Of a DNA stretch of 64,000 nucleotides, positions 7,294-14,712 are shown one piece after another. A model generated the notes under the pieces. The model saw only the letters and a program-made list of their open reading frames with translations. It was not told the origin of the DNA and made no database searches. How positions within the stretch are numbered: position 1 is the stretch's first letter; every line of letters starts with the position of its first letter. The DNA comes from Nocardioides sp. IC4_145 (GTDB taxonomy: Bacteria > Actinomycetota > Actinomycetes > Propionibacteriales > Nocardioidaceae), in the NCBI RefSeq assembly GCF_011250565.1, contig NZ_JAANMS010000006.1:62001-126000 (forward strand), read 5' to 3'. Position numbers and translations under genes: made by a program.

Positions 7294-7351
7294 GCCCACC
7301 ACCCTACGAGTGTCCACCGACAGCGATTTCGGGGCGGTCGGCGCGCGCTGC

Positions 7352-10883: not shown

Positions 10884-11456
10884 CTATGGTCCAGACCGGT
10901 CCGGCGCAGGGCTTCGGCCGGATGAGGCGGCCGGCGGCGCCGACGCGGACCAGGGTCGTCCGGACAGCGTGAAGAGCTGCCAGACGACGAGCACGAGCGC
11001 GGCCACTGCAAGCACGGCCGCCGGCGTCGCGAGGACGTCCGCGCCGGCGCCCAGCACCAGCACCGGCAGCACGGCCACGACGACGACGAGGGTGACGGCG
11101 AACCGCAGCCGGCGAGCGGCCGGCAGGTCCTCCGCGGCGGTCGCGCGGGCAGCGAGCACGTGGCACAGCAGCCCGATGAACCCCAGCTGCGGCAGCGTGA
11201 GTGCCCAGGCCAGGGACGCGTCGACGTCCTCGAGCGCCTCGGCCGTCGCCGGCACCCACAGCGGCACCGCGACCGCGCCGGCCAGGGCGGCGAGCGCCAC
11301 CAGCACGGGTCGCCGCTCGGTGTCCGGGGGGAGCCGGAGGACCCCCACCAGCACGAGCACCCAGCCCAGCGGGTCCGGCAACGCGTCGTACTCCCCGAAG
11401 CCGGCGGTGAGGCCGATGACGACCAGCCCCATCGCGACGGACTGGAGCGGCTTCAC
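10884..11456 (-). CDS. Small membrane protein, unknown function
   Basis: A 190-residue protein with about five hydrophobic helices (MGLVVIGLTAGFGEYDALPDPLGWVLVLVGVL at the N-terminus). I do not recognise the family. Its GTG start overlaps the MATE stop codon by 4 nt (GTGA, 11453-11456), so it is translationally coupled to the exporter and may support it. The stop codon TAG lies within a TAGCCT hexamer (10881-10886) that could serve as -10 for the next gene. Confidence 0.7.
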   Translation of the reverse strand: MKPLQSVAMGLVVIGLTAGFGEYDALPDPLGWVLVLVGVLRLPPDTERRPVLVALAALAGAVAVPLWVPATAEALEDVDASLAWALTLPQLGFIGLLCHVLAARATAAEDLPAARRLRFAVTLVVVVAVLPVLVLGAGADVLATPAAVLAVAALVLVVWQLFTLSGRPWSASAPPAASSGRSPAPDRSGP

Positions 11457-12811
11457 GGGGTCAGGCTACGGACGCCGGTCACCAGCCAGGCGTCGCCCCG
11501 CGCGCGGCGGAGCAGGACCGCCAACCGGGCGCCCATGAAGACCGCGGCGAACACGGCCCAGACGACGACCAGGCCGCCACCGAGGTACGCCGCCGCGAGC
11601 ACGGCGGGGGCGTGCAGGACGAGCACGACGAGGCCGGCGCGGGCGAGGTACGGGCCGTCACCGGCGCCGATGAGCACGCCGTCGAGCACGAAGACGACAC
11701 CGGCGACCGGTTGGCCCAGCGCGGCGACGACGAGGACGGGGACGAGCAGGTCCTGCACGGCGGCGTCGCCGGTGAAGAGGTGGCCGAGCACCGGGCTGGC
11801 CGCAGCGAGGAGGAGGCCGGTGACCACGCCGCTGACGATGCCCCAGCGGATCATCCTGTCGGTGACGGCGCGGGTGCCGGCCACGTCGCCCGCGCCCAGG
11901 TAGCGCCCGGTGATCGCCTGCGCGGCGATGGCGATCGCGTCGAGCACGAAGGCGAGGAAGGTCCACAGCGTCATCGCGAGCTGGTGCGTGGCCAGGTCGA
12001 CCTCCTGGTCGCGGCCGGTCGCGCCGACGGTGACGGCGTACGTCGTCACCAGGAGCGCGGCGCGCAGGGTGAGGGTGCGCACGACGAGGGAGACGCCGGC
12101 CCGGCCGGCGGCACGGATGCCGCCCCAGTCCGGGCGCAGACCGGCACCGTTGGCCCGGGCGCCCCGGACGACGACGGCGAGCAGCGCGGCGGCGCTCGCG
12201 ACCTGTGCGAGCACCGACCCCACCGCGGACCCGGCGAACCCCAGGCCGTCCCAGGCGCCGACCCCGAAGACCAGCACGACGTTGAGGACGATGTTGAGCG
12301 CGTTGCCCGCGACGGCGACCACCAGCGGGGTCCGGGTGTCCTGCAGGCCACGCAGCACGCCGGTCGTGGCGAGCATGACCAGCAGCGGCGTGGTCCCGAG
12401 GAAGGCGATGCGCAGGTACGTCGTCGCGTGCTCGGTCACCGCCGGGCTGGGGTCGAAGACCGCGACGAGCGGCTCGGTCAGCAGCACGCCGAGGACCGTG
12501 ACGATCGCGCCGATGACCACGGCCAGCCAGACCCCGTCGATCCCCTGGGTCAGCGCGCCGCGGGTGTCGCCGGCGCCGACGTGGCGGGCGACCGCGGCGG
12601 TCGTGCCGTAGGCGAGGAAGACGCACAGCCCGACGGCGGTCTGCAGCACCACGCCGGCCACGCCGAGCCCGGCGAGCTCGGGGGTCCCGAGGTGGCCCAC
12701 GACGGCGGCGTCGGAGAGCAGGAACAGCGGCTCGGCGACGAGGGCGAGGAACGCGGGCAGCGCGAGGCGGAGGATCTCGCGGTCCTGGGCCACGTCCTCG
12801 GGTCGGCGCAC
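11453..12811 (-). CDS. MATE-family efflux transporter (DinF-like)
   Basis: A 452-residue protein with twelve hydrophobic helices in two similar halves. LRLALPAFLALVAEPLFLLSDAAVVGHLGTPELAGLGVA at the N-terminus and a second half beginning near VDLATHQLAMTLWTFLAFVLDAIAIAAQAITGRYLGAG are typical of DinF/NorM exporters, which expel organic cations using H+ or Na+. GTG start with TACTCT 6 nt upstream (leaderless pattern). Streptomyces also keeps a MATE gene between rplI and dnaB. Drug or metabolite specificity is unknown. Confidence 0.9.
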   Translation of the reverse strand: MRRPEDVAQDREILRLALPAFLALVAEPLFLLSDAAVVGHLGTPELAGLGVAGVVLQTAVGLCVFLAYGTTAAVARHVGAGDTRGALTQGIDGVWLAVVIGAIVTVLGVLLTEPLVAVFDPSPAVTEHATTYLRIAFLGTTPLLVMLATTGVLRGLQDTRTPLVVAVAGNALNIVLNVVLVFGVGAWDGLGFAGSAVGSVLAQVASAAALLAVVVRGARANGAGLRPDWGGIRAAGRAGVSLVVRTLTLRAALLVTTYAVTVGATGRDQEVDLATHQLAMTLWTFLAFVLDAIAIAAQAITGRYLGAGDVAGTRAVTDRMIRWGIVSGVVTGLLLAAASPVLGHLFTGDAAVQDLLVPVLVVAALGQPVAGVVFVLDGVLIGAGDGPYLARAGLVVLVLHAPAVLAAAYLGGGLVVVWAVFAAVFMGARLAVLLRRARGDAWLVTGVRSLTP

Positions 12812-12879
12812 CTGGAGAGAGTAGTCCGGGTAAGAGGCAGACCCGCTTCTGGCCCCTACGCGACTAGCCCGGGCCGGGC

Positions 12880-13150
12880 GGTGGATAACTACCCGTCGCC
12901 TGTGGATACCACGGACCGTCGGTGCTTTGTCGACAATCCAACCGGAATCGCCCGGATGACCACCGGGTGAACCGGATCCGTGCGGAAATGATTTCGCTCC
13001 ACATGCCGCCGGCCGCGTTTCTGCAGGTCAGCGGGGTTTCGCGCGCGTGAACGGGCCAGTCCTCCACAGGTCGCTCCCCATGCTGTGCACAGCGCGTCGC
13101 GTGTCGTCCACGGGTTGTCCCCGGTTATCCCCAGGCCCTGTGGACAGGGT
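12880..13150. promoter_or_regulatory. Cluster of DnaA-box-like 9-mers upstream of dnaB
   Basis: The 482-bp gap between the MATE gene and dnaB holds several close matches to DnaA boxes (TTATCCACA / TTGTCCACA): GGTGGATAA at 12880, TGTGGATAC at 12901, TTGTCGACA at 12927, and, near 13108-13150, TCGTCCACG, TTGTCCCCG, TTATCCCCA and TGTGGACAG. Most differ by one or two bases from a box. The stretch is also less GC-rich than neighbouring coding DNA. It could titrate DnaA or make dnaB DnaA-responsive. No dnaA or dnaN flank it, so it is not the standard oriC. Confidence 0.5.
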
Positions 13151-13293
13151 GCTGTCGCTGGGGTAGTCGCGGCACGTACCGTCCGGGAGTCGCGGACCGA
13201 TGTCGGTGGGCCTCCCTAGCGTTCGAGGAGCCGGCCGGCCCGACGGGGCGCCGGCACCGCAGGACCGGTCACGAGCGCACAGGAGGGGCACGA

Positions 13294-14712
13294 GTGAGCA
13301 TCGCCGAGTCGGACACGCGGGGCGTCCCGGAGCCGCCGTTCGAGGAGTGGGGCGACGGCCCGGCTCCGTACGCTCCCGGCGAGCGACCCTCGACGCCCGG
13401 CGACCGCACGCCGCCGCAGGACATGGCGGCCGAGCAGTCGGTGCTCGGCGCGATGCTCATCTCCAAGGACGCGATCGCCGACGTCTCCGAGGTCCTGCGC
13501 GGGGCCGACTTCTACCGGCCCTCGCACGAGACCATCCACGAGGCGATCATCGACCTCTTCGGTCGCGGCGAGCCGGTGGACATGGTCACGGTCGCGGCGG
13601 AGCTGCAGCGCCGCGGCGAGCTACAGCGCATCGGCGGGGCGCCGTACCTCCACACGCTCTCGGCGAACGTGCCGATCGCGGCCAACGCGGCGTACTACGC
13701 CGAGATCGTCCGGGAGAAGGCGATCCTGCGCCGGCTGGTCGACGCGGGGACCAAGATCGTGCAGATCGGCTACGCCGGCGAGGGGCACGTCGACGACGTG
13801 GTCGACCGGGCGCAGGCGGAGATCTACCAGATCACCGATCGCCGCTCGAGCGAGGACTACGCGCCGCTGTCGGACATCATGGACGGCGTCCTCGACGAGA
13901 TCGAGGCGATCGGCAACCGCGAGGCGGGCCTGTACGGCGTGCCGACCGGCTTCGCCGACCTCGACGACCTCACCAACGGTCTGCACTCCGGCCAGATGAT
14001 CATCGTCGCGGCGCGTCCTGCGATGGGCAAGTCGACCCTCGCACTCGACTTCTGCCGGGCGGCGTCGATCCACAACAACCTCACCAGCGTGTTCTTCAGC
14101 CTGGAGATGACGCGCTCCGAGATCACGATGCGCCTGCTGTCGGCCGAGGCGAAGGTGCCGCTCAACCACATCCGCAACGGGCAGATGAACGACGAGGACT
14201 GGTCCAAGCTCGCCCGCAAGATGGGCGAGGTCTCCTCGGCGCCGATCTTCATCGACGACAGCCCGAACATGACGATGATGGAGATCCGGGCGAAGGCGCG
14301 CCGGCTCAAGCAGCGCCACGACCTGAAGCTGATGGTCATCGACTACCTCCAGCTGATGACGTCGGGCCGCAAGGTCGAGTCGCGCCAGCTCGAGGTCTCG
14401 GAGTTCTCCCGCCAGATCAAGCTCCTCGCCAAGGAGCTGGAGATCCCGATCATCGCGCTCTCCCAGCTCAACCGTGGTCCCGAGCAACGCGGCGACAAGC
14501 GCCCGATGATGAGCGACCTGCGCGAGTCCGGCTCGATCGAGCAGGACGCCGACATGGTGGTGCTGCTCCACCGCGACGACGTCTACGAGAAGGAGTCGAC
14601 CCGCCCCGGCGAGGCCGACCTGATCGTCGCCAAGCACCGCAACGGCCCCACTCGCGACATCACCGTCGCGTTCCAGGGCCACTACTCGCGCTTCGTCGAC
14701 ATGGCGCACTGA
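13294..14712 (+). CDS. dnaB: Replicative DNA helicase DnaB
   Basis: A 472-residue hexameric helicase that unwinds DNA at the fork. After ~40 disordered residues comes the N-terminal domain (PPQDMAAEQSVLGAMLISKDAI), a linker, then the RecA-like motor with Walker A ARPAMGKST (240-248), VFFSLEMT, Walker B LMVIDYLQLM (Asp350), SQLNR and DLRESGSIEQDAD. Length is that of an intein-free protein, unlike the mycobacterial copies that carry inteins. AGGAGG precedes the GTG at 13294. Confidence 0.97.
   Translation: MSIAESDTRGVPEPPFEEWGDGPAPYAPGERPSTPGDRTPPQDMAAEQSVLGAMLISKDAIADVSEVLRGADFYRPSHETIHEAIIDLFGRGEPVDMVTVAAELQRRGELQRIGGAPYLHTLSANVPIAANAAYYAEIVREKAILRRLVDAGTKIVQIGYAGEGHVDDVVDRAQAEIYQITDRRSSEDYAPLSDIMDGVLDEIEAIGNREAGLYGVPTGFADLDDLTNGLHSGQMIIVAARPAMGKSTLALDFCRAASIHNNLTSVFFSLEMTRSEITMRLLSAEAKVPLNHIRNGQMNDEDWSKLARKMGEVSSAPIFIDDSPNMTMMEIRAKARRLKQRHDLKLMVIDYLQLMTSGRKVESRQLEVSEFSRQIKLLAKELEIPIIALSQLNRGPEQRGDKRPMMSDLRESGSIEQDADMVVLLHRDDVYEKESTRPGEADLIVAKHRNGPTRDITVAFQGHYSRFVDMAH

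Follow-up and report, generated by a model that had tools for sequence, protein, structure and literature searches.

Upstream of the replicative helicase gene dnaB of Nocardioides sp. IC4_145 lies a cluster of DnaA-like boxes, which is enriched over shuffled sequences and conserved in relatives and is very unlikely to be a product of chance. As the cluster is real and conserved, and as its distance to a predicted dnaB promoter is fixed, DnaA probably helps to set how much helicase is made. Based on sequence comparisons, we consider it likely that the region at 12880-13150 is a DnaA-responsive control region of dnaB, in which a DnaA-bound array, anchored on an inverted pair of boxes, would activate a predicted promoter, P1, and a second predicted promoter, P2, would add damage induction. 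Positions refer to the window, that is, the whole stretch of 64,000 nucleotides that was analysed (62001-126000 of the 134-kb contig C77 in the 4.27-Mb assembly), unless the contig is named.

A cluster of DnaA-like boxes upstream of dnaB

The cluster occupies the interval between a divergent gene coding for a MATE transporter (11453-12811, minus strand) and dnaB (13294-14712, plus strand; Pfam matches DnaB and DnaB_C), in agreement with the preliminary description, which had placed it in non-coding DNA before dnaB. Boxes were scored against TTRTCCACA, a consensus rather than a matrix derived from the oriC of the species, and the palindromes TTGTCGACA and CTGTGCACA were each counted as one site. 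With this scoring, 12880-13150 contains five distinct DnaA-like sites with at most one mismatch, nine with at most two and no perfect box. The preliminary description had counted at least seven box-like 9-mers within 270 bp; this number holds when two mismatches are allowed, and only then. Across 2000 dinucleotide shuffles of the 271 bp, means of 0.10 (at most one mismatch) and 1.06 sites (at most two mismatches) were obtained and the observed counts were never reached, which bears out the earlier view that random occurrence at this density is unlikely. The cluster is also the densest 271-bp window on the contig (five sites), the maximum in 30 shuffles of the contig being two sites per window.

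Two minus-strand boxes with one mismatch each, TTATCCACC (12880-12888) and GTATCCACA (12901-12909), are found at the end distal to dnaB; the former is part of a block that is partly conserved among 39 aligned Nocardioides stretches, and the TGTGGA of the latter is conserved among 71. They are followed by the palindromic TTGTCGACA(A) (12927-12936, one mismatch), which was scored as a box and might be bound by another protein, and in which TGTCGACAA is conserved. The next box, TCCTCCACA (13060-13068, plus strand, two mismatches), contains the conserved TCCACAGG and starts 65 bp before position 13125, a spacing that is recurrent across genera. The palindromic CTGTGCACA(G) (13083-13092, two mismatches) contains a conserved GTGCACA, and the plus-strand box TCGTCCACG (13104-13112, two mismatches), 21 bp before 13125, is located inside the conserved block GTGTCGTCCACG; a weak plus-strand box, TTGTCCCCG (13115-13123, two mismatches), shows little conservation. 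The cluster ends with the inverted pair TTATCCCCA-N5-TGTGGACAG (13125-13147), made up of the plus-strand box TTATCCCCA (13125-13133) and the minus-strand box CTGTCCACA (13139-13147), each with one mismatch, the latter 5 bp before the predicted -35 element of P1. The pair is rare, as it is the sole match in its own genome even when up to three mismatches are allowed.

The DnaA protein encoded by this genome carries the sequence NRDHTTV near its C-terminus, which we take to be a DNA-binding signature, and dnaA is located on the same contig as the cluster, approximately 36 kb apart. The intergenic region on the dnaN side (dnaN assigned by eye) has a single site with at most one mismatch, at C77:36605. 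An OsmC-like gene (Pfam) and a MarR-like frame (by eye) are found at C77:36220-37630, between dnaA and this intergenic region, in which good DnaA boxes are few. A second cluster, with three DnaA-like boxes with at most one mismatch, is present outside the window at C77:42858-42922 in the interval between rsmG (gidB) and parA (genes assigned by eye). A structured RNA or riboswitch upstream of dnaB was rejected, with no Rfam match at E<=1 across 12700-13400.

Conservation of the boxes and their spacing

The preliminary description had pointed to conservation in relatives as a check on the cluster, and both the sites and their spacing upstream of dnaB proved to be conserved. The Nocardioides set comprised 63 upstream stretches, from the 57 of 59 genomes with a dnaB match and from six genomes of a class search, and all 63 contain at least two boxes (at most one mismatch) within 750 bp upstream of dnaB. 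In an alignment of 71 Nocardioides stretches (these 63 and eight named loci), the best-kept blocks are GTGTCGTCCACG, GTTATCC.CAGG.CCTGTGGA.AA, GTGCACA, TCCACAGG and CAGGTCAG, the last of which is not a box; the conservation of TGTCGACAA is looser. When at most two mismatches in total and a distance of 14 or 15 bp from one box start to the other were allowed, the inverted pair was found in 55 of the 63 stretches and was missing from eight. At a distance of exactly 14 bp and with at most two mismatches, the 59 Nocardioides genomes yielded 55 matches, 44 at dnaB and 11 elsewhere, versus none for the reversed control. The pair is present in 60 of the 71 Nocardioides stretches and in all 35 from Streptomyces and near relatives, but in only 11 of 91 other stretches. 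Among the 197 stretches, three pairs of sequences are identical over the last 400 bp, and all of them were retained.

Two further observations were made in the Nocardioides genomes. Four of them (G001, G011, G015 and G039) have a second inverted pair, CAATCCACA-N5-TGTGGATAA, distant from dnaB. In several, G032, G041, G006 and G014 among others, the dnaB match is split around residues 245-253, and in some also around residues 412-421, within one long open frame, as would be expected for inteins.

The class search covered 148 genomes (10 Nocardioides and 138 others), with a dnaB match in 136 of the 138 others. From these 136, 54 were used, mainly one per genus and with 16 of the 69 matching genera outside the sample, and 53 of the 54 have at least one box upstream of dnaB. 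Taking one stretch per genus (53 genera from 29 families), at least two boxes per 500 bp are present in 43, one box in nine and none in one. The boxes of the 53 genera are biased in orientation towards dnaB (132 plus versus 30 minus), and distances of 65, 12, 53, 21 and 44 bp recur between plus-strand boxes. Observed and expected numbers of plus-plus pairs are 19 versus 2.1 at 64-66 bp and 7 versus 0.7 at 53 bp, and those of plus-minus pairs at 14-15 bp are 7 versus 0.5; in individual tests of these three distances, none of 5000 redraws of the positions reached the observed counts. As this null model takes no account of shared ancestry when positions are redrawn, and as the distances were chosen post hoc, these numbers are evidence of constraint rather than of independent origin.

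A comparison within loci gave a similar picture. The 80 named loci used, chosen as the 80 best of 589 candidates and hence biased to near relatives, the nearest being those of Nocardioides, contain on average 4.34 boxes in the 500 bp before dnaB, versus 0.077 in 1247 control windows taken from these loci. In 73 of the 80 loci, no other window is as dense as the one upstream of dnaB, and the 500 bp are without a box in three, namely those of Modestobacter Leaf380 and two Nesterenkonia.

Between the boxes lies a conserved element that is not a DnaA box, GCAGGTCAG (13023-13031, plus strand), which corresponds to the recurrent CAGGTCAG. Upstream of dnaB, CAGGTCAG is found in 57 of 63 Nocardioides, 29 of 33 Streptomyces and 21 of 93 other stretches, and its reverse complement in none, none and two, respectively. 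The longer form GTTTNNNCAGGTCAG occurs exactly 13 times in the genome and 29 times with at most one mismatch, versus two for the control; its sites include 13017-13031 in the window, upstream of dnaB, and C77:39317-39331, between dnaA and rpmH (by eye). That GCAGGTCAG is a motif specific for dnaB or replication was rejected, as many GTTTNNNCAGGTCAG sites adjoin genes without a link to replication (by eye).

Predicted promoters downstream of the array

Promoter P1 (13153-13182, plus strand) is predicted from the register of its -10 element and from sequence logos, and consists of a weak -35 element, TGTCGC (13153-13158), and the -10 element TACCGT (13177-13182), separated by a spacer of 18 bp. 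To describe the register, the -10 element was scored as TANNNT and its distance was counted from the start of the minus-strand box. TANNNT is found 37 or 38 bp from this box in 45 of the 60 pair-bearing Nocardioides stretches; in another 12 it is shifted by one helical turn, to 48 bp, and in three it is at none of these positions. It is present at 37 or 38 bp in all 35 stretches from Streptomyces and near relatives and in seven of the 11 other pair-bearing stretches, two Arthrobacter and four genera of one family among them, and is absent from these positions in the remaining four. The mean number of sequences with TANNNT per offset is 0.94, 0.53 and 0.11 for Nocardioides, Streptomyces with near relatives, and the others, respectively. 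The logo of 33 Streptomyces sequences reads TTGGCT-N17-TACCGT, and the -35 element is weaker in Nocardioides. In 45 genera that lack the pair, TANNNT is most frequent 62, 40 and 52 bp from plus-strand boxes, a weak signal with counts of four to five. Where the pair is present, the boxes are mostly at a constrained position relative to a promoter-like -10 element.

Downstream of P1, we predict a second promoter, P2, TGTCGGTG-N8-TAGCGT (13201-13222, plus strand), based on motif matches and conservation. Its form TGTCGGTG-N8-TANNNT (TGTCRGTG-N8-TANNNT) is what we take to be the RecA-NDp consensus. The motif is rare: the 4.27 Mb contain nine perfect matches, and the reversed control gave zero. These precede dnaX, recA, clpP, dnaB and the genes coding for an enoyl-CoA hydratase, an HD phosphohydrolase (presumably dGTPase-like), a DUF4365 protein, an AP endonuclease and a HEPN_SAV_6107 protein; three of the nine genes have no known repair role. 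The RecA-NDp-like promoter of the AP endonuclease gene is also part of the window (7301-7322, minus strand) and is located directly before the gene. At least one match to the motif was found in each of the 59 Nocardioides genomes, with few control matches. The perfect form is present upstream of dnaB in 36 of 63 Nocardioides stretches, and 52 have a relaxed form no more than 200 bp from dnaB, leaving 11 without it; neither the reversed pattern nor the minus strand gave a match in any of the 63. A constant distance between the pair and P2 was rejected, as P2 is located 43-149 bp from the minus-strand box.

The RecA-NDp promoter corresponds to the motif of PafBC (PMC6789036, PMC8223512), and two neighbouring WYL-domain matches on contig C16 are, at the level of the domain, candidates for PafB and PafC. 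In M. tuberculosis, the induction of dnaB by mitomycin depends partly on PafBC, and dnaB is still induced when RecA and PafBC are both down, for which an SOS box has been proposed (PMC8151990). An initial search in S. venezuelae gave no conserved PafBC motif (PMC9380542). P2 resembles known RecA-NDp/PafBC promoters in that TGTCGGTG-N8-TANNNT precedes recA and repair genes in this genome. It differs from the known set in the membership of dnaB, for which the backing found in print is limited to the partial PafBC dependence in M. tuberculosis (PMC8151990).

DnaA and the probable control of dnaB

Binding of DnaA upstream of dnaB is known from M. tuberculosis, where it was measured in vitro, and from M. 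smegmatis, where it was measured in vivo, and an M. tuberculosis DnaA mutant with reduced binding in this region under-expresses dnaB (PMC7738170). The region described here resembles the Mycobacterium region (the Rv0057 region and its M. smegmatis homologue) in gene and place; it comes from another genus, and we found no account there of its box geometry, of the register of its promoter or of a second promoter of the RecA-NDp-like kind (PMC7738170). DnaA of Caulobacter crescentus is also cited as binding upstream of dnaB (Hottes et al., 2005, via PMC7738170), a likeness in the site of binding that concerns a distant phylum. Escherichia coli DnaA prefers closely spaced double boxes 2-3 bp apart, whereas 5 bp separate the boxes of the Nocardioides pair, and the words 'inverted' and 'palindrom' are absent from the main text on these double boxes (PMC11317965). 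Nothing on the control of dnaB was found in PMC13270200 and PMC5835720. In a limited search of open-licence PMC papers, which is not proof of absence, neither the inverted pair nor the spacing ruler, the P1 register or the stacked second promoter was encountered.

We propose that DnaA binds an ordered array of boxes anchored on the inverted pair 5 bp upstream of the P1 -35 element, and that the boxes 21, 42 and 65 bp upstream of the first box of the pair join this array. A protein bound just upstream of a -35 element activates more often than it blocks. As the pair is located upstream of the -35 element and not across the start site, bound DnaA would most likely activate P1, a promoter of the vegetative type, so that helicase supply would follow the amount of the initiator. 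P2, of the RecA-NDp/PafBC type, would add induction of dnaB by DNA damage.

The preliminary description had suggested either titration of DnaA or control of dnaB by DnaA. DnaA binding in mycobacteria (PMC7738170) and the conserved sites and spacing lend support to this suggestion, and the fixed distance between the pair and the -10 element speaks for transcriptional control of dnaB rather than for titration alone. A site that titrates or inactivates DnaA, like the Streptomyces clusters or E. coli datA, would limit initiation, its place before dnaB being secondary; this is a reasonable possibility, if not the one we favour, and it may coexist with control of dnaB. The many boxes and a position outside oriC, yet close to dnaA on the contig, would fit such a site, as they do the clusters of Streptomyces coelicolor, which reportedly bear the names D78, H24 and H69. 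These clusters (Smulczyk-Krawczyszyn et al., 2006, via PMC4585315) also lie near the origin of an actinomycete and outside oriC, and are cited for repressing untimely initiation, unlike the control of dnaB proposed here. In both B. subtilis and S. coelicolor, clusters close to the origin can repress initiation at the wrong time (PMC4585315), and box density in E. coli is high near the origin (PMC12371093). Titration, however, needs no fixed promoter register, yet the -10 element is found at 37-38 bp in Nocardioides, Streptomyces, two Arthrobacter and one further family, and the boxes preferentially point towards dnaB.

If DnaA does act at P1, it might also repress the promoter in a negative feedback, or repress and activate it depending on its nucleotide state, which we regard as rather unlikely. 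An array made up of weak boxes lends itself to the sensing of DnaA-ATP, and autoregulation of DnaA in E. coli is a repression. DnaA is autoregulated at its own promoter (PMC7738170), which would also be in line with repression. Against this, the pair is located upstream of the -35 element rather than over it, and in M. tuberculosis less DnaA binding goes with less dnaB (PMC7738170). That the region is a second or a relic replication origin is very improbable: the boxes are dense and the GC content, 74% for the contig, dips locally to 0.59 at 12900-12999 (the 100-bp minimum), but this dip is modest, no AT-rich unwinding element was seen by eye beside the boxes, and both position and promoter register point to dnaB. 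We give least credence to chance, or to shared GC-rich words without function, for which the lack of a perfect box and the presence of several CCACA words could be quoted, as the shuffles, the conservation and the 80-locus control all speak against it.

Activation of P1 by DnaA is the reading that we favour for Nocardioides. More tentatively, we speculate that a DnaA-activated dnaB promoter exists throughout the class on a fixed ruler (12, 21, 44, 53 and 65 bp, with the last box or the pair locked to the -35 element), through which the initiator would set its own supply of helicase; downstream of it, Nocardioides would have a damage promoter of the PafBC type, and a GCAGGTCAG-binding factor might be part of the same complex. 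The fixed spacings provide direct predictions that can be addressed by mutation, and Streptomyces is a tractable system for asking whether the role of such clusters is titration of DnaA, switching of dnaB or a combination of the two. If our proposal is correct, a conserved promoter would couple the supply of helicase in actinomycetes to the initiator, by which the helicase is loaded, and in Nocardioides also to DNA damage.
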